IMG/VR virus record: IMGVR_UViG_3300042384_001374
Coordinates: 1-64,000 of that record
Direction: 5' to 3' (one strand)
DNA from: a virus
Length of the DNA stretch: 64,000 nt
Under the pieces are notes generated by a model. That model was not told the DNA's origin. It worked only from the letters and a program-made list of their open reading frames with translations, and did not search any database. Position numbers and translations under genes: made by a program. Every line of letters begins with the position of its first letter. Position 1 is the first letter of the stretch. Of this stretch, positions 40,327 through 56,600 are shown one piece after another.

Positions 40327-40332
40327 ATTCCA

Positions 40333-40350
40333 TTTTAGCCACGAATAAAA
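40333..40350. repeat. TTTTAGCC palindrome, copy 21
   Basis: TTTTAGCCACGAATAAAA, 7 nt after the 39988 stop and 13 nt before ATG 40364. Confidence 0.88.
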
Positions 40351-40363
40351 CAACCACTCAATC

Positions 40364-41560
40364 ATGACCACCACACCAACTCCGCTCTACTACGACAACT
40401 GCCTGCTCACCGAAGACGATTTGCCCAATCTCGCCGCCGAGCACAAAATTCCATTCACTGATCTGCAAAAAGCCTGCGAGCAAATCCGCAGCAAAGGCGA
40501 AGTGCTTTACAGTCTGTATCCAAACACCACGCGAGAGCGGCTGCGGACGTTCGCAGCGTCCATCACCTTTGAGCCTGATGAAGCTTTGGATTACACCCCC
40601 GGAGAAGACCCCACTCCATGCCTTGTTGTAAATAGTCCGCAGGAGGCAGCCACAACGTCTTTGGTCACCGTTGAGGCACATACTGACGCCGAAGCAGTTC
40701 AAAGCCCGCTAAAGCCGCGCAGCAAAGCAAAGAAAAGCAAACTGGAAGAATCCGTGTTCGATCTCGCAGCCGAACTTTACGATGAAGAAGAAAATGATGA
40801 ATCCACCGAACCTGCCCCGGTCACCCAGCGCGACGAAGTGGTGGAAAGCGCTTCCGTTGCGCTAATGCAGGCAATGGTCGGTGACAGCGCCTCGTTCATC
40901 ATCACCGAGGAAGGCATCTGCTCCATCAACCCGGCGCACCCGCCTACCTTGGTGCATTCCTACCAAGTCGTCTCGTCTGTCCTACGCTTGTCTGACCTGT
41001 CTGACAAAGTAAACGACAAAGGCTGCTGGATGCTTGGCTCAATCCTTGCTGCGTTGGAAGACTACCACGGAGAAAACTTCAACGTCGGACAGGTGTGCGA
41101 GCAAACTGAAAAAGCAGAAAACACCATCCGCACTGCACTGTCTGTGTTCAAAGCGTTCAAAGACAAACGTTACAACCTGTCATTCAGTTCGCACAAGGAA
41201 GGATTTCACATGAAAGCCCCGCTGGAAGTGAAAAAGCTCATCCTGCACAAAGCCGAAACTTACGAACTGACCACCAAGCAAATTCGGGCGCTCGGCAGCG
41301 TGTATCGAGCGATGGAAGACGACACCACCATTCGCAACATCCGCAGCAAACAGCAGGCTTTGGATTTGGTTTCGGCGGTGGAAAGCGTCAAAGTGAAGTG
41401 GTTGGTCTATGAAGACGGCAGGATGGTCGAGCTAACTCGCACAGACGGCTCAACCCCAGACGGTCAGATGGCCATCAATCTAAAAGACAAAGTGTTCTTC
41501 ATCAACGGCGAAAAAGCCGGAGAGGTGGAACGCATCGGCGTCAAAAAAGCCGTGAAGTAA
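40364..41560 (+). CDS. Putative replication-associated protein
   Basis: 398 residues. The N-terminal 130 are followed by a low-complexity acidic/Lys linker, then a C-terminal helical domain with an HTH-like stretch (NFNVGQVCEQTEKAENTIRT) and a strand-rich end. Directly upstream of the DnaB-like helicase, so a loader or initiator is plausible. No ATPase motif is visible. Unrecognised family. Confidence 0.5.
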   Translation: MTTTPTPLYYDNCLLTEDDLPNLAAEHKIPFTDLQKACEQIRSKGEVLYSLYPNTTRERLRTFAASITFEPDEALDYTPGEDPTPCLVVNSPQEAATTSLVTVEAHTDAEAVQSPLKPRSKAKKSKLEESVFDLAAELYDEEENDESTEPAPVTQRDEVVESASVALMQAMVGDSASFIITEEGICSINPAHPPTLVHSYQVVSSVLRLSDLSDKVNDKGCWMLGSILAALEDYHGENFNVGQVCEQTEKAENTIRTALSVFKAFKDKRYNLSFSSHKEGFHMKAPLEVKKLILHKAETYELTTKQIRALGSVYRAMEDDTTIRNIRSKQQALDLVSAVESVKVKWLVYEDGRMVELTRTDGSTPDGQMAINLKDKVFFINGEKAGEVERIGVKKAVK

Positions 41561-41566
41561 AATTGA

Positions 41567-41584
41567 TTTTAGCCGCAACTAAAA
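41567..41584. repeat. TTTTAGCC palindrome, copy 22
   Basis: TTTTAGCCGCAACTAAAA, 20 nt before the helicase ATG. Confidence 0.9.
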
Positions 41585-41604
41585 CTGAAAGGAGCACCCG
41601 ACCC

Positions 41605-43029
41605 ATGAGCAAAATAAAGAATCTCAGCGAAGACATCACCAAAGCGCCACCACATGCAATAGGACCTGAAAAATCCACTCTTTCATCTATGTTGCAAGAA
41701 CCCGGACGATTTATCCGGCAAGCGCTCAATGAAAATCTAGTTGTTGACGACTATTACATTCCAGCCCATCGCCATCTTTATCAATTTTTGCTCAAACTTC
41801 ACGAACAAGGAGAGCAAATCGAATTGGTGTCACTGGTCCAGCGGCTACTTGACAACGGGCAGCTTGATCGAATTGGAGGCGCGTCGACACTTGCCGAGCT
41901 GCATAACTACGCTATCGGACACAGCCATTTCTCTCTTCATTTGTCTCAAGTGAAAGACAAAGCGGTGCTGCGGGAAATCATCCGAAAAGCAAACGCACAA
42001 ATCCGTGCGGCTTACGAACAGCCCGATGAAGTCAAAGAGCTGGTCAACCAGCTTGCTTCGGACGCCGCTGAAATGGCGGTGAAGACCGAAAACCGGGCGT
42101 CCGATTTCAAAAAGTATCGCGAACAAATTGTCACTCCGGATTCGATGAAAGAACAAGTGGTCAGCTACCTCAACGGCGACCGGGTGCTTGGTGGAGACGG
42201 CTTTTTCCTTTCCCCGTTCGATCTCGCATTCCGCAAGCACGAGTGGACGGTGTGGTGCGGAACGAGCACCCACGGCAAATCGCAAGCCGTGCAGAATCAG
42301 CTCGCTTGGCTTGCATCGCTCGGCCGCAAGTCGATCATCGCTTCGCTGGAGCAGCCGCCCGAAATCACGCTTGGTCAAATCCTCAAGGCAATGACCGCCT
42401 ACAAGGACATCGCAAGAAGCGAGGAATTCGAACCGGCGTGGGGCTACATAAACACCCAGATCCAGATGTATCGCGGGCAACGCAAGACCAGCCCGAAGCA
42501 TCTCATCGAAACCTTTCGTCAAGCCTATCTGAACAACGGCACGGACACCGGGGTGATTGACAACCTGATGTGCCTGCAAGTGGATAGAGGCGACAACTCG
42601 GCCTTGGCGAACGCCATCGACATGTTCCGGGTGTTTGTTTCGGAGTATCCATTTCACCTTCATCTTGTCGTCCACCCCCGCAAACCGGGAGGCAACGAAT
42701 CACCCAACCGCGCACCCACCCAAGCCGACATCCGTGGACCGGCAGAAATCGGCGATCAACCGAACAACGTCATCGTCATTTCCCGAGACTTGGACAAGAG
42801 CCGAAAGCTCGCCGAGATGGAAGCGGGGCATTTCTCCAAGCTCGAACGCGAAGCCTTCTGGCAAAGCACTCCCTGCGGCAAGATTGCGGTTGAAAAGCAG
42901 CGCATGACCGGCTCGATGCCCATCAAGCACACTTGGTTTGACCCGGTTTGCAACCAGTTCATGGATCACCCCGGCAAAGCCAGACCGATGTTCTTGATTC
43001 CACCGTGGGAGGTTGAGCCTTTGGCTTGA
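41605..43029 (+). CDS. dnaB: DnaB-type replicative helicase
   Basis: 474 residues from ATG 41605, preceded by AAAGGAG, one of the few clear Shine-Dalgarno sequences here. Residues 10-150 form the DnaB N-terminal helical domain (EKSTLSSMLQEPGRF, RIGGASTLAELHNYAIG). The RecA-like core has Walker A GTSTHGKS at about 219-226 and downstream motifs SLEQPPE, VIDNLMCLQ (Walker B) and HPRKPGG. It unwinds DNA at the fork. No DNA polymerase or primase is visible in the window. Confidence 0.88.
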   Translation: MSKIKNLSEDITKAPPHAIGPEKSTLSSMLQEPGRFIRQALNENLVVDDYYIPAHRHLYQFLLKLHEQGEQIELVSLVQRLLDNGQLDRIGGASTLAELHNYAIGHSHFSLHLSQVKDKAVLREIIRKANAQIRAAYEQPDEVKELVNQLASDAAEMAVKTENRASDFKKYREQIVTPDSMKEQVVSYLNGDRVLGGDGFFLSPFDLAFRKHEWTVWCGTSTHGKSQAVQNQLAWLASLGRKSIIASLEQPPEITLGQILKAMTAYKDIARSEEFEPAWGYINTQIQMYRGQRKTSPKHLIETFRQAYLNNGTDTGVIDNLMCLQVDRGDNSALANAIDMFRVFVSEYPFHLHLVVHPRKPGGNESPNRAPTQADIRGPAEIGDQPNNVIVISRDLDKSRKLAEMEAGHFSKLEREAFWQSTPCGKIAVEKQRMTGSMPIKHTWFDPVCNQFMDHPGKARPMFLIPPWEVEPLA

Positions 43030-43038
43030 GAGCTTAGT

Positions 43039-43203
43039 ATGAACGATTCAGTCACTCTTTGTTCTTTCTGCAACAAACCAGCAACCACCTATCACATTCC
43101 GCCCAATGTAAACAGCAAAACCTTCGCTGCCATCCCACTTTGCGGCGGCGATCATCGCGGCGGCGTCCGAACCAAAAAGAAGTCTAAAAAATGCGCGACA
43201 TAG
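43039..43203 (+). CDS. Small zinc-finger-like protein
   Basis: 54 residues; CSFCNKPATTYHIPP and CGGDH give a Cys/His cluster, followed by a Lys-rich tail. It overlaps the next gene by 13 nt. Confidence 0.55.
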   Translation: MNDSVTLCSFCNKPATTYHIPPNVNSKTFAAIPLCGGDHRGGVRTKKKSKKCAT

Positions 43204-43565
43204 CCATGATGGAAATTCACCGGAGGACCAAAGGGGTGGGCCGCAGCAAGCCGGGCGACATCTCTGGTTGTTTCGACATTGCGATGGGCCACAACCGCTA
43301 CGCAGGCCCGAGAACAGCCGTGTGCAAGGTGATGGTGAAGCAAGGTTGGGAGTGCTTGACCATCGCAATCAAATACCGGGTCAGGAGCCGCCTCTACGAA
43401 CGGGCTCCCAATCCGTCTGAAGAAGCTCGCCTGTTGCCGCTGTTCTTCCACGAATGGGAGCTGCCCATCCGGGTGTTTGTGATGCCAATCGACATCGACG
43501 CACCCGCAAGATATTTGCTTTCTGAACGCAGCAACCAACTTATGGATCATTTACCCCAATTTTAG
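43191..43565 (+). CDS. Hypothetical basic protein
   Basis: 124 residues; ATG 43206 is an alternative start. Basic N-terminus, beta-rich centre (CKVMVKQGWECLTIAIKYRV). Its TAG stop is in the degenerate palindrome at 43560. Unrecognised. Confidence 0.55.
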   Translation: MRDIAMMEIHRRTKGVGRSKPGDISGCFDIAMGHNRYAGPRTAVCKVMVKQGWECLTIAIKYRVRSRLYERAPNPSEEARLLPLFFHEWELPIRVFVMPIDIDAPARYLLSERSNQLMDHLPQF

Positions 43566-43577
43566 CCAAAACCAAAA
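43560..43577. repeat. TTTTAGCC palindrome, copy 23 (degenerate)
   Basis: TTTTAGCCAAAACCAAAA; only the left arm is intact. It contains the TAG stop of the 43191 gene. Confidence 0.6.
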
Positions 43578-43584
43578 ACATTTC

Positions 43585-43854
43585 ATGTCATCCACCGAAC
43601 AAATCCTTGCCGAGCGTCCAGCGACTCACGGCCGCTTTGAGGACAACTCGCGCATCACCTGCGACATCATGCAGGTGCTTCAACAATCTCCAAACTGGAA
43701 ATTGACTTCTCCAACCATCAAAGTTGGAACCATCATGATCGTCCACAAATTAGCCCGCGCTTTCTCCGGTGATTTGAACTATTCCGATCATTGGCTTGAC
43801 GTGGCAGGTTATGCCAGTCTGATTTTCGACACCAACCAACAACCAACCAACTGA
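43585..43854 (+). CDS. Hypothetical protein (DUF6378-like)
   Basis: 89 residues. HGRFEDNSRITCDIMQVLQQ ... KLARAFSGDLNYSDHWLDVA, then a final DIAGYA-like segment, is a pattern seen in many phage proteins annotated as DUF6378 or similar; I am not sure of the number. Confidence 0.55.
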   Translation: MSSTEQILAERPATHGRFEDNSRITCDIMQVLQQSPNWKLTSPTIKVGTIMIVHKLARAFSGDLNYSDHWLDVAGYASLIFDTNQQPTN

Positions 43855-43858
43855 CATC

Positions 43859-44377
43859 ATGCTCTCACGAATCCACGTTCTCACTGAAAAGCTCACTGCC
43901 GCCACCGCTCCGATTTTCATGGAGCACAAAACCTACGATGACATTCTTGCCGCCATGTGTTTGTTGATGGCGCGTATTGTGCAGTCAACTCCGGAAAAAG
44001 GTCAGGAACTTCAAGTTTTAGACAACGCTCAAAACCAAATTTCCCATGCTCTCACGCAATTCCTCAAGCTTGAAGAACAAATTATCAACGCCCGTGCGGC
44101 CGAAAGGGACCGGGCTCGGAAACTCGTTGAAGACGGCATTGCTGGTTTTGGAGATCTTACCGTCGTCAACGGAAATGAGTTTGGACCCGCTTTTGTCGGA
44201 AAGCCAGTTGCCATTGAAGCAGAAACCATTTTGCAAATTGACGACAGGCTCCCAGAAGATGATGAATTTCCCGATTCATTCGAAGCGACCAGTTCCAAAG
44301 ATCAAAACGACATGGCCAGCGACATTGAAGACGGCTACAACCCGGACGGCCCGAGAAGTTACGCACAAGGCATTTAA
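43859..44377 (+). CDS. Hypothetical acidic protein
   Basis: 172 residues, helical N-terminal half and acidic C-terminal tail (DIEDGYNPDGPRS). It overlaps the start of the HNH gene. Unrecognised. Confidence 0.55.
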   Translation: MLSRIHVLTEKLTAATAPIFMEHKTYDDILAAMCLLMARIVQSTPEKGQELQVLDNAQNQISHALTQFLKLEEQIINARAAERDRARKLVEDGIAGFGDLTVVNGNEFGPAFVGKPVAIEAETILQIDDRLPEDDEFPDSFEATSSKDQNDMASDIEDGYNPDGPRSYAQGI

Positions 44378-44750
44378 AAAAGCCCGCAAGCAGTCCGCTG
44401 GCGCTCAGCGTCGCAAAGCCCTAGAAGCCTCTTACAAAGCTGCCTGTGAGGAAATACATCCTGAAGCCGTTTGTGCCGTCTGCGGCGTCCGTAGCGAAAG
44501 CGCAGGCATGGAGCGCCATCACGTCGCGGGCCGCCGTAAAGCCAGCATGTGCTTCTTCGTTCTGCTCCACACCCCGTGTCATCACGAAAGGGTCCACGCC
44601 AATCCCAAATGGGCCGAAGCAAACGGTTTGCTCTGGAGTGGTCGCAACTCTAAAACCCTTACTCTTGCCGACGCAAACCGACTTCTGGCTTTAATGCCGC
44701 ACCCGCCAAGCGATTGCATTCCTCGCTGGATCAAGCACACGCCTCAATAA
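44325..44750 (+). CDS. HNH-type nuclease
   Basis: 141 residues if begun at TTG 44325; there is no in-frame ATG in a sensible place, so the start is uncertain. CAVCGVRSESAGMERHHVAG, then CHHERVHANPKWAE form a Cys/His zinc site and H-N-H-like core, as in small phage HNH endonucleases. It may be a packaging-associated nuclease or a mobile homing enzyme. It overlaps the 43859 gene in another frame. Confidence 0.65.
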   Translation: MKTATTRTAREVTHKAFKKARKQSAGAQRRKALEASYKAACEEIHPEAVCAVCGVRSESAGMERHHVAGRRKASMCFFVLLHTPCHHERVHANPKWAEANGLLWSGRNSKTLTLADANRLLALMPHPPSDCIPRWIKHTPQ

Positions 44751-44754
44751 ATTT

Positions 44755-45150
44755 ATGACCAACACACCTACACTCGACCAACTCGAAGCCCTTGTCCTAG
44801 AATGGGGAAAAGCCAAAGGCATTCTCGAACACGCTACGCCAGAATCCCAGTTTCGCAAAACTCTGGAAGAGGTTCAAGAAATTGCAGACGGACTTGAATT
44901 TGGAATTGATGAAGAAATTCTGGATGGTATCGGAGACACGGGGGTAACTCTAATCTTGCTTGCCGCCCTTAAAGGCTGGACGTTCCGTCAGTGTCTTGCG
45001 CACGCCTACGGCATTATTTCCAAACGCACCGGACGAATGGTTGATGGAATGTTCGTGAAAGATGTTCCGTCAAGCGATGATGACCTTGGTGAACTAGACG
45101 CGTCCAAAGCTTGTCGTGTGGGTGATGAACCCTGCGAAAGCTGCCAATAA
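44755..45150 (+). CDS. MazG-like nucleotide pyrophosphohydrolase
   Basis: 131 residues. QFRKTLEEVQEIADGLEFG and EEILDGIGDTGVTLILLA carry the E-x-x-E ... D-x-x-D type metal-binding motifs of MazG. AYGIISKRTGRMVDGMFVKD is typical of phage MazG-like proteins. These hydrolyse NTPs or alarmones in infection. The tail ends with CRVGDEPCESCQ. Followed by a palindrome. Confidence 0.78.
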   Translation: MTNTPTLDQLEALVLEWGKAKGILEHATPESQFRKTLEEVQEIADGLEFGIDEEILDGIGDTGVTLILLAALKGWTFRQCLAHAYGIISKRTGRMVDGMFVKDVPSSDDDLGELDASKACRVGDEPCESCQ

Positions 45151-45167
45151 TTTTAGCCACGGCTAAA
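45151..45167. repeat. TTTTAGCC palindrome, copy 24
   Basis: TTTTAGCCACGGCTAAA, directly after the MazG-like gene stop. Confidence 0.93.
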
Positions 45168-45382
45168 CAAATCCCGTCCGTAAACAATCGGACAAATGAC
45201 CGAAGCGTGATTGCAAGCGCGTGACGGCAAGAAGCCTATATGGTAAGTGGCTCCCCATCTGCTCGGCGTGGTAACAACTGACCGGGCGCATTCTCCAGCC
45301 AACCCAACTCATAAGCGAACATTACATCGGCCGCGCCGCCGAAGCTGCCGCCCGAGCCCGTCACAACCGAATCCACAAACCA
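45168..45382. other. Gene-free stretch
   Basis: 215 nt. Small hairpin GTCCGTAAACAATCGGAC at about 45177. The last 108 nt are open in the frame of the next gene but have no standard start codon; the predicted extension is Ala/Arg-rich. Confidence 0.35.
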
Positions 45383-46003
45383 ATGAAAAAGACCGCCAAG
45401 AAAAAGACCGCCGCCAAGAAAGTTCCAAGCAAGCAGGCCCGCGCCTTCTCGCAAGCCTTGGAGACATTCAAGAAGCCTGAGTCCCCAATCGAACTTCAGC
45501 ACGCGGAACACCTGCTTGTTCGTAAAATTGGTCAGGTGATAAAAGAACCGGCTGACAGCTTTGTGGATTTGCCTAATTCCGATCCAGTTCCAGAGCATGC
45601 CGAAAATTGGGAATCCGTGCCCAACTACGGCCCTTCCACCGAAGTGGACGAAGAAGCGATGGCTCGCGAGGTGTTGTTTGGCGAGATGCCAGTTTCTGAT
45701 GCTCATGCAGCAGCCGTAGAAGCGTCGCCGCCTAACCTTGGCCACATAGTGCCACAAACCACACCCGACGCGCCACAAACGCCCCTACACGACGAAAAGC
45801 TCGGACAAAACCTTAAACCATCCGAAACCACCGACGATCAACTCGACCCAGAGCAACTCGCCAACAACATTGAGCTGCTGATCGACTCGCTCAACTTCAT
45901 CCACGACCGGGGATGGCTGCGCAAAATGCAGGAAAAAGACATCCAAATCGTCAAAGCCCGCATTAAGTGCGGACGCAAAATTATCAGTCAACTCCGCAAC
46001 TAA
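45383..46003 (+). CDS. Hypothetical protein with basic N-terminus
   Basis: 206 residues. MKKTAKKKTAAKKVPSKQAR is histone-H1-like; the middle is acidic and Pro-rich; the C-terminal helix NNIELLIDSLNFIHDRGWL is compact. The TAA stop abuts the palindrome at 46004. Unrecognised. Confidence 0.6.
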   Translation: MKKTAKKKTAAKKVPSKQARAFSQALETFKKPESPIELQHAEHLLVRKIGQVIKEPADSFVDLPNSDPVPEHAENWESVPNYGPSTEVDEEAMAREVLFGEMPVSDAHAAAVEASPPNLGHIVPQTTPDAPQTPLHDEKLGQNLKPSETTDDQLDPEQLANNIELLIDSLNFIHDRGWLRKMQEKDIQIVKARIKCGRKIISQLRN

Positions 46004-46021
46004 TTTTAGCCACGACTAAAA
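46004..46021. repeat. TTTTAGCC palindrome, copy 25
   Basis: TTTTAGCCACGACTAAAA; directly after the 45383 TAA stop, and its last A begins ATG 46021. Confidence 0.93.
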
Positions 46022-46233
46022 TGGAAGAGATCAACCTTGCCGCGCCTAACCAGCAAAAAAAAAGCGGCTTTATTCTGCGTCCAACCCCGGACCCGGAACC
46101 TCCCGTCGTCGTTCCGTGCTGCCAATACGTTCTTACCGATACCCAAGAATACTCAGTATTCTGGAATCCTTTCAACAAAGTAGTGCAATGTCACAACTGT
46201 GGACACATCTGGACCCCGGAATCCATCAAGTGA
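46021..46233 (+). CDS. Zinc-ribbon protein
   Basis: 70 residues from ATG 46021. CCQYVLTDTQ and CHNCGHIW make a zinc ribbon. GTGA overlap with the next gene. Confidence 0.6.
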   Translation: MEEINLAAPNQQKKSGFILRPTPDPEPPVVVPCCQYVLTDTQEYSVFWNPFNKVVQCHNCGHIWTPESIK

Positions 46234-46544
46234 GCAAAAAACCCAAAACCAAAAAAATCGGAGTCAAGGAACTGCTTGCGCTTTTAGGTGCTGATCCAAA
46301 CGAAGCTATCCCAACCGGACTGCGCGAAGCGGAATGGGCCACGCAATTAGAAGGCTGTGAACATGAGCCCGTCGGGCTTGGGAAATGCTCAACAACCAGC
46401 AAGGTAATGTTCTTGTCATTCTCTCAAGCCAAAGCCGCCAGCAAGCGCCGTCTCAAGCGCGGATCAAATGCCAACGCTTTCCGGATTTATCTGTGCCCGG
46501 ATTGTTCGCACTTTCACATGACCAGCCAAGTCAAACGCTCATGA
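46230..46544 (+). CDS. Hypothetical basic protein
   Basis: 104 residues from GTG 46230. KKPKTKKIGVKELLALLGAD, then FLSFSQAKAASKRRLKRGSN and CPDCSHFHMTS near the end, suggesting nucleic-acid binding. It carries a gene-end-type hairpin inside the frame (HEPVGLGK). Confidence 0.55.
   Translation: MSKKPKTKKIGVKELLALLGADPNEAIPTGLREAEWATQLEGCEHEPVGLGKCSTTSKVMFLSFSQAKAASKRRLKRGSNANAFRIYLCPDCSHFHMTSQVKRS
46366..46378 (+). repeat. Gene-end-type hairpin AGCCC-GTC-GGGCT (intragenic)
   Basis: Inside the 46230 gene; followed by TGGGAAATG. Confidence 0.6.
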
Positions 46545-46717
46545 CTGAAACCCTACCACATAAAAAAGACGACCAAGACTTCATCGACAAACACGGCCGC
46601 AACCACACTTGCGAATGCGGTTTGACCAACATTTGGAGCCCACGTTTCGACATGTGGATGTGTTCCGGTAACCTCGCCAAATACAAAGCACTCTACAAAA
46701 ATTCCCTTGAAGTATGA
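46541..46717 (+). CDS. Small Cys-containing protein
   Basis: 58 residues from ATG 46541, CECGLTNIWSPRFDMWMCSG. ATGA overlaps on both sides. Confidence 0.5.
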   Translation: MTETLPHKKDDQDFIDKHGRNHTCECGLTNIWSPRFDMWMCSGNLAKYKALYKNSLEV

Positions 46718-46935
46718 ATTCCATCTGCCACTACAAAGAAAACGAACAAGGATATTGGAATTCCGATTGCGGCAAAACATTTGACTCGATCACTTGGCAC
46801 GATTATGCCCGCGATTTTATTTGGTGTCCCTATTGCGGATCTGAAATGAATTCTGAAATGCACATGTCAAAACAAGACCTTAAAGAAGATCGCGGCGACC
46901 GGGCGCATCAAGAAAGGAAAGATGACGAAGAGTGA
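46714..46935 (+). CDS. Zinc-binding-like protein
   Basis: 73 residues; CHYKENEQGYWNSDCGKTF and CPYCGSEMN match a common short phage zinc protein with an acidic tail. Coupled to the next gene by GTGA. Confidence 0.6.
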   Translation: MNSICHYKENEQGYWNSDCGKTFDSITWHDYARDFIWCPYCGSEMNSEMHMSKQDLKEDRGDRAHQERKDDEE

Positions 46936-47141
46936 GCGCAAAAAAGAAAACAGCCCAGCACGTTTATGCGCTAAAAGTCAGCGAGATCCTAAAAAAGCTG
47001 GGAATCCCTGAGGCCAAACAAGACAAATTCGGAAATCCTTATATCAACCCGGAATATTTGACGCGCCTTCCAGTTACGGTAAAATCTGATTACCAGTCAA
47101 AAGATTGCCACCGGGTAATTTTCAAGCTTTATAAGCAATAG
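46932..47141 (+). CDS. Hypothetical basic protein
   Basis: 69 residues from GTG 46932, basic, ending FKLYKQ. Unrecognised. Confidence 0.5.
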   Translation: MSAKKKTAQHVYALKVSEILKKLGIPEAKQDKFGNPYINPEYLTRLPVTVKSDYQSKDCHRVIFKLYKQ

Positions 47142-47164
47142 AAACAACCAAAAAACCCAAAATC

Positions 47165-47263
47165 ATGACTACCATTGACATTGTAATTTTAATTTGGTCC
47201 GCCGTCATCGGCGTAATTTTCATTTTTTGGCATGTTTTTATCAGCGGGAGAAGGGGACGATAA
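47165..47263 (+). CDS. Small membrane peptide
   Basis: 32 residues, MTTIDIVILIWSAVIGVIFI..., one membrane span then GRRGR. 5 nt before the next ATG. Confidence 0.45.
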   Translation: MTTIDIVILIWSAVIGVIFIFWHVFISGRRGR

Positions 47264-47268
47264 CTTTT

Positions 47269-47676
47269 ATGGAAAATACAATACAAAGCGAAGTAACGTT
47301 GCCATGCACGCCTAGTGATGCATTTAAAATGGTGGAATTCATTCGCCGATACAATAGGTGGAGGCGCGGCGACGAATCGCTTGAGATGGAATCACCGAAA
47401 GCCATTGGAGATGCCCTTGATGCTGTTTGCAGCTTTATAGAAACTCTAGAACGCGAGCAAGACGAATGGGTCGCCAAAGCGGTAGAGCTATGCGCCGAGC
47501 GGGAATCCAATGCCATGCAGGCGTTGGCGTATAAAGCCGAGCGGGACGAGGCGCGTGCAATGGCGCGTGACATGCGGAACCAGCTCGAAAAGGCATCAAC
47601 GGCCCGACTGCTCTTTCCTTCCGAGAACGCTGGGGGCCATGCGCCCGGAGTAAAAGATCAAGCCAATGAAAAGTAA
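47269..47676 (+). CDS. Hypothetical protein at the left end of the cassette array
   Basis: 135 residues from ATG 47269. FIRRYNRWRRGDESLEMESP then a charged coiled coil, a layout common in phage proteins. Its 3' end lies in attC A, so it could itself be the first cassette, or phage backbone next to which the array was inserted. The next gene starts 11 nt before its stop. Confidence 0.65.
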   Translation: MENTIQSEVTLPCTPSDAFKMVEFIRRYNRWRRGDESLEMESPKAIGDALDAVCSFIETLEREQDEWVAKAVELCAERESNAMQALAYKAERDEARAMARDMRNQLEKASTARLLFPSENAGGHAPGVKDQANEK

Positions 47677-47717
47677 CAGAAAAGCTTCTCCGGGTCGTAT
47701 GCGCTCCCTTGTTCGTC
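47622..47717 (+). repeat. attC-like site A
   Basis: R'' CGAGAAC, R' GTTCGTC. Arms GGGGGCCATGCGCCCGGAG and CTCCGGGTCGTATGCGCTCCC pair with extrahelical bases on the 3' arm. The loop holds the 47269 stop and ATG 47666. Confidence 0.85.
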
Positions 47718-48001
47718 CGTGGCAGGAACTCGCGACCCATGCTGACAAAACAATCACGCCGACCGTGGGTGAGACGCTGGAATACCTCTGGGATGGCTAC
47801 CGTGGAGAGGGGCAATGGAGGTCATGCACGATCACACGGATTGATGAGGGGCAATCATGGACGCGACTCCATGCCCGAATGTATTGGGGTTTCGATCACG
47901 CGGATCGCCACCCACGCGAACAAATACTGCACCCACGGGCATTCCGTCGGACGAACGCTAGGGCTATGACGCCAGCAACTGAATCAGACCATGGAAAGTA
48001 A
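47666..48001 (+). CDS. Cassette 1 hypothetical protein
   Basis: 111 residues, MKSNRKASPGRMRSLVRPWQ.... The start codon lies in attC A, so the first 15 residues are encoded by the site and the rest by the cassette (47712-48037). The C-terminal part (LEYLWDGYRGEGQWRSCTIT, TRLHARMYWGFDHADRHPRE) is common in environmental ORFs but unnamed. It overlaps the next ORF by 11 nt. Confidence 0.6.
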   Translation: MKSNRKASPGRMRSLVRPWQELATHADKTITPTVGETLEYLWDGYRGEGQWRSCTITRIDEGQSWTRLHARMYWGFDHADRHPREQILHPRAFRRTNARAMTPATESDHGK

Positions 48002-48043
48002 CAGAAAAGCTATTGAGGGTCGGGCATCAGCCCCTTGTTCTCG
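47950..48043 (+). repeat. attC-like site B
   Basis: R'' GACGAAC, R' GTTCTCG. Arm core GGGCTATG pairs with CATCAGCCC with one extra base on the 3' arm. The loop holds ATG 47991 and TAA 47999-48001. Confidence 0.85.
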
Positions 48044-48350
48044 GTCTTTTGATGACCTACTGGAGAGCTTGGACGCATGGATCGAGGACGCGCTAAAAGG
48101 CTCGAAGCCTATCGGACTAACGCTATCCCGCGCCCGCACCACCATCACCGATCAAAGGGATAGGATCGGGGAAATCTTCGATGCGTTGGAATGCCAGAAT
48201 AAGGAAGTGGAAAAGCTCCGCGCCGCCATCCGAAACCTCCGCGATGTAAAGGGACGCCATCATACGCAAATCGCCACGGAACAACTCTTCGCCCTTCTTC
48301 CCGAGAACGATGAGCCCATGCGCGGCGAAAATGGAACGAATATGAAATGA
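47991..48350 (+). CDS. Cassette 2 hypothetical coiled-coil protein
   Basis: 119 residues, MESNRKAIEGRASAPCSRSF.... The first 20 nt nearly repeat those of the 47666 ORF because both come from attC sites. The cassette-encoded part is helical (FDALECQNKEVEKLRAAIRN). Unrecognised. Confidence 0.6.
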   Translation: MESNRKAIEGRASAPCSRSFDDLLESLDAWIEDALKGSKPIGLTLSRARTTITDQRDRIGEIFDALECQNKEVEKLRAAIRNLRDVKGRHHTQIATEQLFALLPENDEPMRGENGTNMK

Positions 48351-48393
48351 AATTGAGGAGCTTCTGGCCGTCGAATGCGGCGGCTTGTTCTCT
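48302..48393 (+). repeat. attC-like site C
   Basis: R'' CGAGAAC, R' GTTCTCT. Arms AGCCCATGCGCGGC and GCCGTCGAATGCGGCGGCT pair with bulged bases. ATGA of the 48347 frame is in the loop. Confidence 0.85.
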
Positions 48394-48409
48394 GAATCAG
48401 CCCGAATAA
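48347..48409 (+). CDS. Possible 20-residue peptide at the start of cassette 3
   Basis: MKLRSFWPSNAAACSLNQPE, ATGA-coupled to the previous ORF and reading across R'. It may serve only to bring ribosomes to 48428. Confidence 0.3.
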   Translation: MKLRSFWPSNAAACSLNQPE

Positions 48410-48427
48410 CACGAACGACGACGATCA

Positions 48428-48637
48428 ATGAAAGACGAAGATATAGCCGATGCCGAAGCGCAAGGATTTGCTTCCCTCAAGTGGGACGCCGCCGAAAATC
48501 GAGATATCAAAACCGCCCTTGAAATGCAAAAGGCGGAAACGGAATCACTTTGCCGTCTGGCGAAGATGATTGAACAACCCGACCCGGAAGATCCAACGAA
48601 AGCCGCCGACTGGTGGAAACCTGAAACCGACCAATGA
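48428..48637 (+). CDS. Cassette 3 hypothetical acidic protein
   Basis: 69 residues, MKDEDIADAEAQGFASLKWD..., helical and acidic. ATGA overlap with 48634. This cassette is double length and holds two ORFs. Confidence 0.55.
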   Translation: MKDEDIADAEAQGFASLKWDAAENRDIKTALEMQKAETESLCRLAKMIEQPDPEDPTKAADWWKPETDQ

Positions 48638-49047
48638 AAAACAACCGCACGCAAAAAGAAGTGATCCAAGAACGCCAACGAAATGCCGGGTCCAATATCG
48701 CGGCGTATCTGCCAAAACCTCCTGGATCGTATGGAAACCCTTACGAACGGCAACAGACCGCAAACAAGCCGCAGCATCTACGTCCTGATTCGGAAGGCTG
48801 GTGGTGGAGGCTTTGTAAGGGCGAGTGGGAATGCGGCAAGGCTGAATACATCCAGTGGGAAGACGCTGGAGAACCCGAACAAGAGCGAGTATTAGCGTGG
48901 TCCCGTGGAGGATGTTACACGCGATGCGACCAAATCAACCTTCGCTTGGACTCTGGGACACGCTGGTTCAAAGCAACTCCGCCCATCTTGGATTCAGAGA
49001 ACACAACCAGCCCATCTACGGGCGCAACTGAAAAAGATCATGAGTGA
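48634..49047 (+). CDS. Cassette 3 second hypothetical protein
   Basis: 137 residues. Basic N-terminus, then EGWWWRLCKGEWECGKAEYI and a Trp/Cys-rich centre. The stop lies in attC D. Unrecognised. Confidence 0.55.
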   Translation: MKNNRTQKEVIQERQRNAGSNIAAYLPKPPGSYGNPYERQQTANKPQHLRPDSEGWWWRLCKGEWECGKAEYIQWEDAGEPEQERVLAWSRGGCYTRCDQINLRLDSGTRWFKATPPILDSENTTSPSTGATEKDHE

Positions 49048-49092
49048 GAAAATGGAAAGCGATAGCCCGTTAGATGCGGCGACTTGTTCGGC
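48996..49092 (+). repeat. attC-like site D
   Basis: R'' AGAGAAC, R' GTTCGGC. Arms AGCCCATCTACGGGC and GCCCGTTAGATGCGGC pair with two extrahelical bases on the 3' arm. The loop holds ATG 49040 and TGA 49045-49047. Confidence 0.88.
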
Positions 49093-49405
49093 TCTTCTTG
49101 ATGCCTCGCTCGACCTGCTCGCCGGATGGTGCGATGCCGTGAAAAACGGCGGCACTGGGTGGGATGATTGGGACGGATGGTATAAAGACGCCTGCTATCG
49201 CCCCGGCCCGCTGCGCGAACTGATCGATGCTCGCATAGCGAAGATCGCCGCCGATGAATCTGAATGTCCGAGATGCCATGCAACGCGCACATATTACGAC
49301 GGGTGGAACTGTCCGACTGAAGGATGTGATTCTTTGCCGAACGCATCAGCGATGGCACCGCCGCCCCAGCGGCTGCCATCCACGAAGGACGTTCCCGGCG
49401 GTTGA
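49040..49405 (+). CDS. Cassette 4 hypothetical zinc-binding protein
   Basis: 121 residues from ATG 49040 in attC D. GGTGWDDWDGWYKDACYRPG in the middle, then CPRCHATRTYYDGWNCPTEG C as a zinc ribbon. The C-terminal tail is encoded by attC E. Similar short proteins occur in many phages and environmental cassettes. Confidence 0.6.
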   Translation: MSEKMESDSPLDAATCSALLDASLDLLAGWCDAVKNGGTGWDDWDGWYKDACYRPGPLRELIDARIAKIAADESECPRCHATRTYYDGWNCPTEGCDSLPNASAMAPPPQRLPSTKDVPGG

Positions 49406-49425
49406 CCATCCGCGTCTTGTTCTGG
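49336..49425 (+). repeat. attC-like site E
   Basis: R'' GCCGAAC, R' GTTCTGG. Arms GCGATGGCACCGCC and GGCGGTTGACCATCCGCG pair with bulges. An in-frame TTG at 49402 overlaps the 49040 stop. Confidence 0.85.
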
Positions 49426-49448
49426 GTCTTTTTGGGGGCGCGAAAAAA

Positions 49449-49500
49449 TATGAGAATCTCATAAAATAAATGTTGACCTTGTGCGAGAATCTCGTAATGT
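49449..49500 (+). promoter_or_regulatory. Promoter with two operators inside cassette 5
   Basis: Perfect palindromes TATGAGAATCTCATA (49449-49463) and CGAGAATCTCG (49484-49494), centres 33 bp apart. The second overlaps the spacer between TTGACC (49473-49478) and TAATGT (49495-49500), 16 nt apart. Probably bound by the HTH protein encoded at 49819. Confidence 0.72.
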
Positions 49501-49546
49501 CTCCCCAGTTGCACGACGCAACGCCAACACCAAACCAAACACGAAA

Positions 49547-49819
49547 ATGAAAATCACCATCAGCCACGACCAAGACAGCATCGACCCATCCGCCACCTAC
49601 TCCGACGAGCAATTCGTGGAAGTCCGCAAGGCTCTCGAAGCCGAATACGAAAAGGCCATCCTCGCCGAATACCCCGAAGCCGAAATCGACTTCAGCGGCA
49701 CTGACACCACCTACGCGATCCGCGTAACCGGAACCGAAATGGATGACCCGAGCGAGATTGAGGAGAACGTGCAAAGCATCTGCGAAAGCGTCTTCGAAAC
49801 CGGAAACTTCTGGATCTAA
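49547..49819 (+). CDS. Cassette 5 hypothetical acidic protein
   Basis: 90 residues from ATG 49547, about 47 nt after the -10. MKITISHDQDSIDPSATYSD... strand-rich and acidic. It overlaps the regulator gene by TAATG. Possibly co-regulated with, or a partner of, the HTH protein; a toxin-antitoxin pair is conceivable but no toxin motif is visible. Confidence 0.6.
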   Translation: MKITISHDQDSIDPSATYSDEQFVEVRKALEAEYEKAILAEYPEAEIDFSGTDTTYAIRVTGTEMDDPSEIEENVQSICESVFETGNFWI

Positions 49820-50004
49820 TGTTCGCCGATCAACTCAAAGATGAGCGCAAACGCCTCGGCCTGACACAGGCCGGGGCGGATGCCGTCCTCGATACCTGTC
49901 GGGGACAGGTAGCCGCATGGGAAAGCGGACGCAACACGCCGCACGTCCTCACTCAGGAGGGAGCCTTGGCACGCCTCCGCAACCGGAAGACTCCGCGCAA
50001 ATGA
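49819..50004 (+). CDS. Xre-type HTH regulator (cassette 5)
   Basis: 61 residues. LKDERKRLGLTQAGADAVLD ... VAAWESGRNTPHVLT is a clear Xre/Cro helix-turn-helix with the W-E-x-G signature. Translationally coupled to 49547. Likely represses the promoter at 49473 by binding the GAGAATCTC palindromes. Confidence 0.8.
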   Translation: MFADQLKDERKRLGLTQAGADAVLDTCRGQVAAWESGRNTPHVLTQEGALARLRNRKTPRK

Positions 50005-50011
50005 TTCTTCC

Positions 50012-50134
50012 CCAGAACGCAATAGGTGAGGCACGGGCGGACAACGCCAGCCCGCCACAAGATCAAAATCTCTAATCACATGGAAACTCCGAATCAAACC
50101 GACCCGCCCGTTGACCTCGACCGCCTTGTTCGTC
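50012..50134 (+). repeat. attC-like site F
   Basis: R'' CCAGAAC, R' GTTCGTC. Arms GGTGAGGCACGGGCGG and CCGCCCGTTGACCTCGACC pair with extrahelical bases. The longest loop of the set, containing ATG 50080. Confidence 0.85.
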
Positions 50135-50379
50135 CTTCTTGGTTCAAGGGGGACGCGGCTTGCGACTGGCATGAAGATGCTGGCCACGAGAACGGCAGCT
50201 ACTACTGCAAGTGCCTCGACTGCGATGCTGACTTCGTGGGGCATAAACGCCGCCACATCTGCCGCAAATGCCACTACGAAGCCAAGGCCAGATATGACGC
50301 TCTGACCCCCGAAAAACGGGCGGCATTTGATGAAAAACGAAACGCCGAAATCAGGGCATTCTTTGAGACGAACGCCTAG
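50080..50379 (+). CDS. Cassette 6 zinc-finger-like protein
   Basis: 99 residues from ATG 50080. CKCLDCDADFVGHKRRHICR KC gives a Cys/His cluster, with a helical charged C-terminus. The start codon is in attC F. Unrecognised. Confidence 0.6.
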   Translation: METPNQTDPPVDLDRLVRPSWFKGDAACDWHEDAGHENGSYYCKCLDCDADFVGHKRRHICRKCHYEAKARYDALTPEKRAAFDEKRNAEIRAFFETNA

Positions 50380-50455
50380 CTCATGCACCCGCCCATGAAA
50401 GACTCCGAATCAAACAAAGACGCTCCGGCGGGTTGCATGAAGCGACTTGTTCGTC
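50367..50455 (+). repeat. attC-like site G
   Basis: R'' GACGAAC, R' GTTCGTC. Arms GCTCATGCACCCGCC and GGCGGGTTGCATGAAGC pair fully except for one T and one A bulged on the 3' arm; spacers GCCTA and GACTT stay unpaired. The clearest example. Confidence 0.9.
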
Positions 50456-50640
50456 CTCTTTATTCGATGCAGCGATGCAGGAAGGATAATTCCAGATACG
50501 GGAAAATCCACTTCGCGCATCATGAATTCGAAACGCTTTGTGGGCTGACTACGGATTCCGACTGGTGGGTTCTCACAAACAGGCATGACGGCGATGCGAC
50601 ATGCGCAAAATGTATTAAGACGAACAGCAGTTGTTCGTAG
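50383..50640 (+). CDS. Cassette 7 hypothetical Cys-containing protein
   Basis: 85 residues from ATG 50383 in attC G. ETLCGLTTDSDWW and CAKCIKTNSSCS resemble short phage proteins with a C...C-x-x-C site. The C-terminus is encoded by remnant H. Confidence 0.6.
   Translation: MHPPMKDSESNKDAPAGCMKRLVRPLYSMQRCRKDNSRYGKIHFAHHEFETLCGLTTDSDWWVLTNRHDGDATCAKCIKTNSSCS
50619..50639 (+). repeat. attC remnant H at the array end
   Basis: GACGAAC-AGCAGTT-GTTCGTA. The outer cores remain but the inner arms are missing. GACGAAC matches the GTTCGTC that opens cassette 7. Confidence 0.6.
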
Positions 50641-50680
50641 TGCCCGACCGCACGAATAATCAGCGAAGCAAATAATGAAA

Positions 50681-50699: not shown

Positions 50700-53600
50700 C
50701 TATTTGTTTTCTTTGCGAATCACCTCGCGCATTTCGGCGCGCTTTTCCGCTCTCGGCTCTCTGGCAAACGGAATAGCTTCAAATGTCAAATAGGTGGCCG
50801 CGTCCAGCAACGAAGCCGCCCGGTTGCGTTGCGCTTCCCTGCTCATCAAATATTGCGAAGTAAGGACGCCCGCTTCCAGCGCGTCGTGAGCCATAGCGGT
50901 AGGTGCGGTCAAGTCAGCCAGTGAACCGTGCCACGAGTCTTTGTAAGAGCGAATGGTAACACCGTTCTTGTCGTAGCTTCCAAAGCCTGCTTTAAGCTGT
51001 TTGCGATTAAACGTGTTGTTTAATCCAGCGGCTCCGGCAATTGCCATCGGGTTAGTGACGGTTTTCTGCACCAACCCGGAGACCGGTGCGTAACCCGCCA
51101 TTACCCCCAGCACTGGCACTGCTGTGGTTAGTTCCAGCAAGCTTCTGGAAGCAATTTCAGCAAATGCCGACGCCTGCGCCGCGTCTGCTTTTTTGGTCTG
51201 GTCAAACAATTCCCGTTTGTTGCCAAACGTGATGGTTTTAATGACTTCGCCGAGCATAGAGCTTTTTTTGTCCACGAACATCCACTCGTTGGCGAGTTTC
51301 TGAGCTTTTTTCTGGGCCTTGTCATCATCGTCGCCGCCTGCCAAAAAAAACAAATAAGACACCATTGGCACCAGCATTTGAAGCTTAAACGGGTAAAACA
51401 AAATGTTTTGGGTCAGTGAGGTGACCACGTTCTCCAGCGCCTCTTTCTTGGTTTCCGCGTCAGCCTTTTCATCAAACAAAATGGGCACCAAAACCGAAGT
51501 GTTGGACGCCATGCTCGACGTGTGATTGCTGAAGCGCACCATCGAACGCCACAGCGCGTTGCGGCCGGGCGAAGATGTCCGGTTCTGAAACATCCACGAT
51601 TTCTTGCTTTGGTCCGACTGAGCCATCACATCGTTCACCTTGCGCCGGGCGTTGCTCTTTGCCATCGCGGTGGGCTCGACGTTCGATTTGACCACGTCGG
51701 CCGGTTCCATCTTCATCTGGTCAGCCAGCTCGACAATGAACATCGCCGTGGACAAGTAGGACTCACCCTTGCCAATAGTCCAATGAAGCGCCTTCTCGCC
51801 GAGCTTTTCGTATTCCCGAAGCCCTTTGCCAGCAAGGTTCTTGGCCGTGCTTTTCCCAAACCTGACTTGGCTGTGCATGATGTCACGCGCCACATCCGCG
51901 CCGTCCGCCGAGCGGTAATACACCGAACGGTCGGTCTTGCGGACAAACTCCCGAGCCTGTTCATTGAATTTTCGGTCGGTGATCAGCTTTTGCAGGATGC
52001 TGAAGTATTGCGCTGCTTGCTTGCCCTTTCCAACCGCAATCTTGCCAGCGGCATACCCTACTGAAGGGCCTGTCGTCTGGTTCCAAACTTGTTGAAGGCT
52101 CGCCAAAGCCCGGACTATGTACAACGATCCGAGAAAGCGCATTGCTTCCGCGCCACCCGTGTTGCTCACTCCGTTGGCAGCGTCGTTTTGGAGGATCGTC
52201 TCGTTTTCTTCCGCGATGGCGGAAAGAGCTTGGCGAAACTTTTTAATCTCGTCCTCAGCTTCCTGCTTGGCTTTGCGCTGGGCCGGATCGTTCCAGTCGA
52301 TGTCGTCAGGAATCATCTCGTTCGCTTTATTGAGAAAGTCACCGTCTTTGATGGTGTTCACGCCGTGCTCATCCTGCACCACGCGGCCGAGTGAACGCCG
52401 CAGCACCTCGTAAGTCGGAGTGACGTTCAGCTTATAGATAGCGTCGTCCAAAAGCGAAAGCGGCGCGGTAAGTCCGTTCAATGAAATCGGACGGAACGGA
52501 TTGCGGGAGTTGAAGTAGCCACCCTTGCCGTAGCCGCCGAAGAACGACGAGTCCTTCAACGACACCATGTCGATGGGGTCGGCGATGAAGCGGTCGGAAC
52601 TGACCTGCTGCTCTGCCGGGTCGGGGCGTGCCGCGTAACCAACACGCAGCGGCACGGACGAATAGGTAATCTTGAATGCCTCCTTAGCGTCGTCCCGCCA
52701 CGACTCGCCCGTCACCATGCGCTCGCCCTTCAGCAACTCGCCCGGCTGCTTGTCCACCGCCGCATCCTGCGACAACATCGCCATGGTAAGCTGCATCGCG
52801 CTACTGATGTCGGCAAACGACCTGTTGAGCTGCTGGGCATATCCTTCGACCGCAGCCTCGTTACCCAGAGTGACTTTCGATTCAAGCAGTGCAATGAATT
52901 TGTCCGTCAGCTCTTTCGCTATTTCCGGCGAGCTAATGATGGTATTCGAAATGCCGGATTCCAGCATCCATCCGCGAACTTCCCGAGCCAGTTCCAAATC
53001 ACGGATCATGTCGAGATTATCCGCGTTCCAGTAGCGGTTCAGTTTTGGAATTACTTTGCCGGTCGGAATAGGATTTTTGTTCGCATCCAAAACAGCCTTG
53101 CCATCCGGGCCTTTTACCAGCTCGCCAAAATACAATCCTTGCGCCCGATTCAGGTTTTCCAACTCGTTCAGTCCACGCCCGATGTCGGTAACCAAGCGGT
53201 TGGTCGCCGTCTCGCGGTGCATTCCGAATGCTGTGTCGATGCCTCGGAACACCGAAATGAGGTAGCCGATGGTTTGGTCTTTGGCGTTATTACCAATCGG
53301 CTTGGCCGCCTTGACGATCTTTTCCTCCTCCGCTTTTTTGGAAGTCTCATAGCCTTGGCGTCCGCTGGTGCCGTCGATGCCATATTCGATGAAGTCTTGC
53401 AAATGGATAGCGGCTTGGCGGGCAGCGAAGTTGCGGCGGAACTTGCTACGAATGCGAGCGTCTTGGTGATGCAAGAATTTCAAGGCTCCCAATTCCAGAG
53501 CATGCTTCTTGCCGTCAAACGATACAAAATCAGTAATCAGGCACTTCTGGATTTCTATTGCTTCAATTTCGGCGAACGCCAGCGAAAACACCGGCTCCAC

Positions 53601-56600
53601 CCGGAAAGCAAGCATCCGGCTGACATCCATGTCCTTGACTGAAGATCCGCCCACTTTGGCGAACTCGCCCGAATCAATCGACTTCAACAAGGTTTTGATC
53701 TTAGCCTTGGTGCTGTCGCTAAGCCGGGTGTCGCCGTGCGCGATGACCAACCGTTCGATCATGTAACCAAATTGGTCGAGCTGCTTCTTAGACACGTCGC
53801 CAGTCAGGTCGGCGGTGCGTTTTGCACCAGTAACCGAACTCATCGCGTCGTCCAGCCATGTCTGCATGCCTTTCCGCCAGTCGTCCGAAAATGCCTTAGC
53901 GGCTTCACCTTTTTTCAGGTTTTGTTTAGCCGGACTAAAATCAGCGCCGTCAAAATCCTTGCCAACTTCTTTTTCAGTTCCGGCAAGGAAGTAAGAATAA
54001 GACCCTTGCGCTGGCACACCTTGATTGACTGGCAGTGCATCAAGGATAATGCGCTCCATCTCACGGTTGACGTTGCGCTTGGTAATCTTTGGAAAGTGCT
54101 GCATCAACAACTCGCGGGCGTTGAGCGGCATCATGATCACCTTCTCGCCCTCTTGGTTGATGAGAACACCCAGCTTTTCCTTCCGGAGCTGGTGACTCTT
54201 TGGCAGGTTGATTTGTTTGACGCGGTTTTGGGCGGTGCGGGTCAGGGTGAGTGCCTCTTCCGGGTCGGACAGGTAGGCTGCGGCGTCGGCCGTCATGCCC
54301 TTGTATTGCGCTTCCTGCGCGTCGGAGTGGGCGTCCTGCATCACCTCTTTGACAATTTGCTCCTCAAGCTGCACCAAGTCCACCGCTTGGTTGATGGCTT
54401 TGAGTGGGTCAAAGTTCATGAATTGGTCGCGAGAGCCCCGAACAAACTTGTAGGCGTCCTCAATGCGGTTTTCAGACTGCTCAGTAAGAGCTGTAATGAC
54501 GGCTTTCTGTCGTATCCAGTAGTCTCTGCGGGACATAGTGCCAGACGGCTCGCTTGAAGCGCTTGCAGGTGCCTGAACGTCGTCAGAAACAGGCGGCAAG
54601 GGGTTTGTCAGTGTCAGCTGTGCTTTGTATGTCACTTTTTCGTCGATTGCCTTGGTCAATAAACCTCCAGACTGATCGTTTTTTTGACCCTGCGACGCCC
54701 GCCCCGAATAATAACCCATCCCCACTGGCACTTTGCCTTTGTTGCTGTCGATGACGGACAGTTCGTTGCGAGTCTGCTCCAGTTCGCGCTCCACCCGTCC
54801 GAGGTAAATGGCAGCTTCCTTACGGCCCTGTTCCTGCTCCACGCTGCGGGCCTTACTGGAAAGCAGCGCCCGTGCTTGGTTGGTAGTCAAAGCGATGTCT
54901 TGAAGGGCTCTTTGAAGATCCACTCCAATCAAAACCTGTTGTTTTTGAGTGGATAAATTCTCAAAATTGCGAGCAGCACGAAAGATTTCATCAATTGATT
55001 GTTCAGGATCAGAAACAAAACCTTCGTTACTATCCAGCAACTTGTTAATTTCCTCGTCGATAAACGCGGGCAAGTCAATGGTTTCGTTCTTCATCAACTC
55101 CTCTGACACCATCCGCATGAACGCGTTGGTCTGCATCTTTGGTTTAGCCCCGGCCGTCACCCCTTGGGTAATCTCACGGACCATGTTGTCCATAAACCCT
55201 TGGGCAAACTTGCGGCCGTTGAGCATTCCAGACAGCGAGTTCATTACGTCGGTTTGTTCCTGACGCGTGAAATCGTCGGTTTCCTTGAATGTTTTTAAAC
55301 GGAACCCGCTCAGATTCGCTTTTTTCGGGTCCACCCCGGTCCAGCGCATCACTTGACGGGCGTGCATCTCGGCGTGCGAGTTGAAGATGGAAACGTGCAG
55401 GTTGAACAAACGGGCAGCGTCGCTGATGCGGCTGTTGATGCCTTGCGTGTCGCCCTGTGGCAGCTCGTTGTTCTCGTCCGGAGTGAGCAGGGTGTTGCGT
55501 TCGCGGACCAGCGCGCCGATGGCGTTGGCTTGTTTGTAAAGCCCGTCCACCGCCGCTTTGAGCTGCGGGTTGTTTTCCATGCCCTCGGTGAGCATCAAAT
55601 GCACGACATGCCCAAGATTCGCCGCATTACCGGAATCATCTTTCATCATTTCCGCAAAACGGGTGACGTGCGCCACCACCATGTCCCGAGTCTCCGCTTT
55701 CAGAGATTCGGACCAGTCTTTAGCCGTGGCTAAAAGGTTTGCACCTTCCGGGCTGTTGTCCAACAACTCCTGAAACGCCTGACCATTATCCGCTTCGTAA
55801 GCGCCGATCTCCGCCAGCAGCGCCTCGCGCAGCTCGTTCAGGCGAGTTTGGTTCTTTTCCAGCGTGTCGAGCGACAGCTTGGCTTCCAGCTCCGCTGCAT
55901 CCAGCACGCCAGCAGGCAGCGCCATCCGAATCGACTCCATCATCGCGTCGTCCAACGGCAAATTTACATCCACAAGCCCAAACCCGGACGCATCGGCATC
56001 CTTTGAAAACTTAGAAATGGCCTTTTTCACAACCGCAGCACCCACCAGCGTCCGCACCGCAGGCGCACGCAGCAACAATGAACTGTTGGTCGAGTCGATG
56101 TTTCTTTTTTGAAACGCGATGTTCTGTGACGTGCGACCGCTCACCTTTGGGATAGTCAGGTTGCGCATCTCACCGACATACATTTTGGTTGCCGCTTTCA
56201 GTCCTTTTTCAACGTTGCCTTGCAATGCTGGTCCCGCTACCGCAATGCGGAGCTTGTCAGTGCTGATGCCTTGGCCGGTCGGGTCAAGCGGGGCGCTCAG
56301 GATGTCGCTGGTCGTGCGTTCGTTGGAAGGAGCCATCGGGAATACCCCGCCAGCCGCTTTGCCCTGCTCTATGATGCGGGCAAGCCCGTTGAACAGGAAC
56401 GCGTCGGACGGATTGAGCCCGTTGCCTTGAAGCTCCTTGGCCAAGCGCTTGTTGATGCGCGGCGCGTCAGGACCAAAGCGGTTGGCTTTGCGGTCGTCGT
56501 CAAATTTTGTAGACTGGCGTCGGCCTTCCATTATTTCCTGAAGTTCTTCAAATGTCTTCGCTTCTTTGAGTGCTTCAATCTCCGGAGCGTCCGGGGTGCT

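Follow-up and report, generated by a model that had tools for sequence, protein, structure and literature searches.

A probable integron-type cassette array in a tailed phage: genes opposed to their attC sites, and cassettes that differ between near-identical phages

Integron-type gene cassettes have already been reported from phages. In the portion of the study by Qi et al. (2023; PMC9892861) considered here, phages with three complete integrons, one In0 element and 17 clusters of attC sites lacking integron integrases (CALINs) are described, and five of six tested attC sites from virulent phages recombined with attI1. Like the phage CALINs of that report (in TJE1, P12002L, PH101 and others), the locus analyzed here is an attC array without an integrase that contains mostly small open reading frames (ORFs). 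It is located at positions 47629-50625 of a stretch of 64,000 nt (the window), which corresponds to bases 1-64000 of the 76,099-bp IMG/VR virus record IMGVR_UViG_3300042384_001374, a record not known to be complete. The record belongs to a tailed phage, and we consider it highly probable that this phage harbors a genuine integron-type cassette array (CALIN), whose genes face opposite to their attC sites. A preliminary description of the locus had stated that few or no phage arrays of this kind were described, which was overstated in view of the phage integrons and CALINs published, with assays, in the portion cited. Its interpretation as an integron-type attC cassette array in a phage with turnover at the cassette level was borne out, whereas the orientation of the sites and the limits of the cassettes had to be revised.

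In class 1 integrons, for which cassettes on the resistance plasmid pPS-VIM-5 (L039) and on a Klebsiella resistance plasmid (L038) served as yardsticks, ORF and attC lie on the same strand, the ORF ends before or at attC, and the core is GTTRRRY. The array shares with these cassettes an attC architecture covered by the same covariance model, the complementarity of the R' and R'' boxes and the CG^TT crossover. In contrast, its ORFs are on the opposite strand and start in attC, and its cores are mostly GTTC. An unusual relative orientation of parts is also known from the reverse integrons of Treponema denticola (PMC4909258). There, however, the integrase gene faces the direction of the cassettes, stop codons reside mostly at the R'' box of attC, and no sharing of stops and starts across cassettes is described. 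A further parallel is ORF-11 of attI1 (PMC8876359), where translation of the upstream ORF through the recombination junction promotes initiation at the following cassette; ORF-11 lies in attI and serves the first cassette only, whereas here each attC would carry the coupling along with the stop of its neighbor. The phage arrays of PMC9892861 are, in the portion considered, described as typical and shown without turnover between sister phages, unlike the arrays presented here, with frame-locked ORFs that are antisense to attC and lack stops, and with gain and loss seen directly at the strain level. Methyltransferase-type cassettes occur both in phages of that report and in arrays related to ours (L014/L015). 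A literature search of open-licence PMC papers revealed no description of ORFs that are systematically antisense to attC with stop and start shared across the crossover. As far as searched, phage CALINs are already published and the reversed, frame-locked, stop-less design is new.

Viral contigs were scanned by loop pattern and by protein, which yielded the related arrays; apart from the yardsticks, all sequences derive from metagenomes. The comparison with related phages, which had been set beforehand as the test that could refute the array, disclosed turnover of whole cassettes between L022 and the window and between L018 and L020. L022 represents a sister of the window phage and is 99.1% identical to it over 38767-47630 (8.9 kb). 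Counted over the final 600 nt through AAC, the two sequences differ at eight positions; they then diverge exactly at 47628 and continue with wholly different cassettes. The near-identical contigs L018 and L020 differ by two exact insertions of 314 and 269 nt, each of which consists of attC and ORF and exhibits AAC|G at both ends; after removal of both units, four mismatches remained in 949 nt. Furthermore, cassette 1 of the window occurs as an AAC-to-AAC unit in L002, a phage unrelated to the window phage: the unit 47625-47959 is common to both at 89.6%, and the next attC is a different one in L002. These three comparisons indicate that the cassettes are composed of attC plus ORF and are therefore reversed relative to class 1. 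Near-identical phages carry different cassettes, the mobile unit comprises an attC and the ORF behind it, and gain and loss occur at AAC|G (CG^TT on the bottom strand, the classical G^TT cleavage point). The preliminary description had assumed cassettes of the type GTT-ORF-attC and a crossover at TTG|TTC. Instead, each ORF has its crossover point, AAC|G, at the 3' end, so that attC1 belongs to cassette 1. The ORFs of the window lie on the plus strand and its seven attC hits on the minus strand, while class 1 attC hits lie on the strand of their ORFs. Given the composition of the mobile unit, the ORFs are therefore antisense to attC.

The start of most ORFs lies within or next to their own attC, and these ORFs pass the downstream crossover in one fixed frame, in which AAC encodes asparagine. 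This was studied on 46 curated cassettes whose R'/R'' runs measure 7 nt or more, and as these had been picked by R'/R'' pairing and not by their ORFs, the result on the frame is not circular. An in-frame ATG within the own attC or at most 30 nt from R' was detected in 38 of the 46 cassettes. All cassettes open over their whole body (31/31) are open with the downstream R'' AAC as a codon (phase 0); the other two phases are open in four cassettes each, and those are open in phase 0, too. Past the crossover, the phase-0 frame meets a stop inside the next attC in each of the 35 distinct attCs, at a mean of 13.5 codons as against 48 and 33 in the other frames. In 28 of these 35 attCs no more than 14 nt separate the phase-0 stop from the nearest ATG, and an ATGA overlap occurs in nine. 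Such ORFs therefore have no stop codon of their own, and their last residues are set by the neighbor. ORF1, for instance, ends with NARAMTPATESDHGK in the window and with NAPVLATADTKSPTP in L002, and the C-terminal tail of the resident phage gene to the left of the array (47269..47676) is encoded by the attC of the first cassette. At the array end, the sequence AAC AGC AGT TGT TCG TAG provides the stop. The stop codon thus comes from the next attC, where it adjoins or overlaps the following start codon, or from the attI-like end, and this layout suggests coupled termination and re-initiation in the hairpin loop.

All seven imperfect palindromes were found at the positions given in the preliminary description, and in all seven cassettes of the window the first 7-12 nt are, as claimed, the reverse complement of the R'' at the own 3' end. 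Summed over five positions beyond GTT, R' and R'' agree in 32 of 35 cases, a score equalled by only 6 of 5040 re-pairings, which is due to the near identity of the R' boxes. The arms of the sites are self-complementary beyond chance (14.7 for own versus 9.2 for swapped arms). In permutations, this pairing was reached in 0 of 20,000 trials for 35 sites and, for the window alone, in 1 of 5040, which is the true pairing. Taken one by one, the folds show no unusual stability (DNA z-scores from +0.5 to -2.8), and the minimum-energy fold of site 5 is not the attC fold. Since the energies of single sites are unremarkable, the structural case rests on the comparison between sites. A covariance model (R1), built from 27 sites of other phages with the window sites excluded, recovered exactly the seven sites, all on the minus strand (E values from 7.5e-13 to 2.8e-4), and no further hit with E<0.02 in the 76-kb record. 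R1 also matched class 1 attCs, namely L039 8111-8180 and 6528-6631 (3.1e-7 and 2.8e-4) and the aadA1 attC of L038 at 6001-6060 (4.8e-4), here on the ORF strand as expected. The window sites therefore belong to the attC family.

The extrahelical bases were indeed found on the 3' arm if the top strand is read; on the bottom strand this is the 5' arm, and there the polarity is the classical one. Over 36 sites, pure (one-sided) bulges numbered 71 versus 23 in favor of the arm that is bulged in class 1 attCs, and the ratio for the class 1 yardsticks was 6:0 on the same arm, obtained from only three sites. The conserved attC-specific elements include GCGTT and, on the bottom strand, AACAAG, which is present at R'' in 35 of 36 sites. 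With seven attC sites, R''/R' boxes of the type AAC..GTT, L''/L' arms and asymmetric extrahelical bases, the locus exhibits what defines a CALIN, for which at least two attC sites are needed. ORFs that share the orientation of attC are usual for CALINs and not defining; those of the window do not share it.

Several results weigh against the assignment to integrons. The core boxes are mostly GTTC (GTTCnnn) and not the canonical GTTRRRY/RYYYAAC. A minority, e.g., GTTGGGC and GTTAGGC, fits GTTRRRY, which is a consensus and no absolute requirement, and the sites are divergent. R1 did not find the attCs of the published phages TJE1 and P12002L. No match to PF00589 or TIGR02249 (tyrosine recombinase, integron integrase) was obtained in the 76-kb record, which is perhaps incomplete, nor does this record contain the intI gene beside attI of a complete integron. 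Nor did a bacterial chromosome with such an array come to light: the sole hit of a pattern scan of genome contigs was a chance one, within a TonB-receptor-like gene of a metagenome-assembled genome, and R1 yielded nothing on 297 genomes of the phylum of that genome, an arbitrary one, in a search that is uninformative given the few candidates scored and the lack of a positive control. Finally, the linkage of attC and ORF is not absolute. The homologous ORF2 (92% identical body in L023/L027) and a methyltransferase ORF of L014/L015 (88%) sit with different attCs, and attC and ORF are therefore separable, too.

Some array phages may encode a recombinase other than IntI that works the arrays, an explanation we regard as unlikely. 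One candidate is the tyrosine recombinase of L002 (PF00589, E 6.6e-5), whose ORF starts approximately 40 nt after the AAC|AGC of the array end. However, its homologue in L016/L037 is similar to Akkermansia prophage integrases and is separated from the array by kilobases, there was no match to the integron integrase model, and most array contigs lack a PF00589 hit, L002 and L016 being the only ones with matches among those searched. A little less credence still is given to an exchange of hairpin-linked phage genes by homologous or microhomology recombination through a phage annealing recombinase, without any integron integrase. The lack of an integrase in the record, the presence of a phage exonuclease gene and the two ORFs that have exchanged their attCs would agree with it. 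Yet the break points show homologies of only 4 and 8 nt and lie exactly on the integrase cleavage point, and AACAAG, GCGTT, the bulges and the cross-match to class 1 attCs are left unexplained. The classical orientation, in which a cassette is G^TT-ORF-attC with gene and site facing the same way, is very improbable. Complementary R' and R'' boxes at both ends of an ORF are equally expected for either orientation, attC1 would have to be resident in the phage and yet is missing in L022, and the spacer and the bulges point to the minus strand. We rejected it on account of the two L018/L020 indels, both of which take out attC+ORF and not ORF+attC, and of the polarity of the covariance model hits. 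Least credible of all is an assembly chimera or host DNA mis-joined to the phage contig: cassette arrays do contain repeats and L015 looks like a circle of cassettes only, but an array is present at the very same junction in L022, an independent sister contig, and arrays lie among phage genes such as the GpA terminase in many independent contigs from phages.

If the locus is an integron-type array, its integrase could be supplied in trans by the host chromosome or by a co-infecting or co-resident element, and would recombine the bottom strand in its folded form while the phage replicates. New units would enter at the 3' end of the array, 50616-50645, a candidate attI-like site judging from its sequence. 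Array ends read AAC|AGC instead of AAC|G in the window, L002, L003/L032, L004, L023/L027 and L024; the 24 nt at 50622-50645 are identical in the unrelated phage L023/L027, where AAC|AGCAGTTGTTCGTAGTGCCC is conserved. The array would be transcribed together with the upstream plus-strand operon, and ribosomes would terminate and re-initiate within each hairpin loop. With a stop/start relay in each attC, any cassette would thus be usable without its own promoter, ribosome entry site and stop codon. We tentatively propose, at somewhat less than an even chance, that this constitutes a phage-adapted platform. Such a platform would have its own attI-like dock at the 3' end of a plus-strand operon, draw on a shared pool of reversed, stop-less, frame-locked cassettes, and use the attC hairpins both as recombination sites and as stop/start relays, each unit working on arrival and re-tailing the protein of its upstream neighbor.

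The features of the locus are compiled in Table 1. Homologues of cassette 3 are present in the related phage L024 (77-80%). The ORF of cassette 4 matches an InsA-type zinc ribbon of Pfam below the cut-off (E 0.012). In cassette 5, PF06183 (DinI, E 0.0016) and HTH_31 (E 1.1e-4) likewise scored below the gathering cut-off. At its start (49450-49500), upstream of these two ORFs, the palindrome GAGAATCTC occurs twice around a promoter-like TTGACC, and the cassette looks like a self-regulated mini-operon. A DinI-like protein in this position would bear on SOS control. The ORF of cassette 6 matches phrog_10481 (E 4e-7) and HNH families (E 0.007).

Table 1. Positions of the cassettes, the array end and two phage genes in the window (E values refer to covariance model R1)
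Feature	Position	Strand	attC (minus strand)	R'' AAC start	R' G position	E value	R'/R'' run (nt)	Content
Terminase large subunit-like ORF	12441-15338	-						965 aa, intein splicing domain; terminase match weak
Resident phage gene	47269..47676	+						Left of array; near-identical context in L022 up to 47628, then other tail
Cassette 1	47629..47956	+	attC1 47622-47717	47626	47711	3.1e-8	9 (R' GTTCGTCCG)	ORF 47666-48001, 111 aa
Cassette 2	47957..48308	+	attC2 47950-48043	47954	48037	7.5e-13		ORF 47991-48350, 119 aa
Cassette 3	48309..49002	+	attC3 48302-48393	48306	48387	4.6e-6	12	ORFs 48428-48637 and 48634-49047
Cassette 4	49003..49342	+	attC4 48996-49092	49000	49086	2.8e-4	7	Zinc-ribbon-like ORF 49040-49405
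Cassette 5	49343..50018	+	attC5 49336-49425	49340	49419	1.4e-10		DinI-like ORF 49547-49819; helix-turn-helix (HTH) ORF 49819-50004
Cassette 6	50019..50373	+	attC6 50012-50134	50016	50128	1.1e-9		ORF 50080-50379, Cys-rich, weakly HNH-like
Cassette 7	50374..50625	+	attC7 50367-50455	50371	50449	3.8e-11	7	ORF 50383-50640
Candidate attI-like array end	50616..50645	-		50623 (lone R'')				Reads ..GACGAAC|AGCAGTTGTTCGTAGTGCCC; gives cassette 7 its in-frame stop TAG

Beside the array, the window phage encodes tail proteins (phrog_5939, 1e-85), a DnaB-type helicase, an exonuclease and a tail lysozyme/CHAP protein; the match to a sheath protein was weak. In L024, a distant relative of the window phage, cassettes flank the resident gene on both sides (L024 4752-5768), a layout which suggests that this gene may itself be an old, decayed cassette. 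An ORF of 4407 aa (50700-63923, minus strand) is convergent with the array. It has no PHROG or Pfam match, and a search for relatives through this ORF found none. The window also contains a phage-borne transfer-messenger RNA (tmRNA) at 22319-22660 (111 bits), where ARAGORN makes no tmRNA call, and a type-P5 twister ribozyme at 17729-17792.

More than ten further contigs carry arrays of the same type (L002, L003, L004, L006, L014-L020, L022, L023/L027 and L024). Several clearly represent phages different from that of the window; L004 is a phage of 38% GC with GC-rich cassettes, and GpA-type terminases are predicted in L016 and present in L027. Loci L005, L007 and L009 of the loop-pattern scan looked like chance matches and were discarded. 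Neither the array nor a common attC of this pool had a DNA match among named phages and plasmids. In the methyltransferase-like cassette of L014/L015, attC and R boxes are both replaced in concert, as if the attC of a circular form had been exchanged as a single block. The 'virus' contig L015 (1-4068) comprises 4068 bp of gene cassettes only, with an exact terminal repeat of 127 nt; it is either a multi-cassette circle that exists free or a loop produced by the assembly. At array ends in L003, a 44-nt hairpin (AACAGCC..CCTGTT) is present three times (105-198, 979-1069 and 2710-2804), the copies being 86-95% identical. The hairpin is also found in L004 and is possibly a second attI-like or a short attC type. 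The tyrosine recombinase ORF of L002 (6660-7709) has a homologue in L016/L021 as well, whose nearest named relatives are in Akkermansia phages. Out of 50,697 phage records, the L016 integrase has matches in three only, all of them Akkermansia phages, and Verrucomicrobiota hosts are therefore plausible for those array phages. This is a faint hint that the hosts of L016-type phages may be Verrucomicrobiota, and it comes from L016 and not from the window phage.

The data demonstrate natural turnover of integron cassettes between phages that are nearly identical. In the cassette design described here, the hairpin used for recombination is also translated, with the crossover within a codon in a fixed frame, and the site may act as an expression signal as well. 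Annotation software built on the classical orientation would set the limits of such cassettes wrongly. The arrays point to a common pool of small phage genes that move one unit at a time, most of them without a known function.

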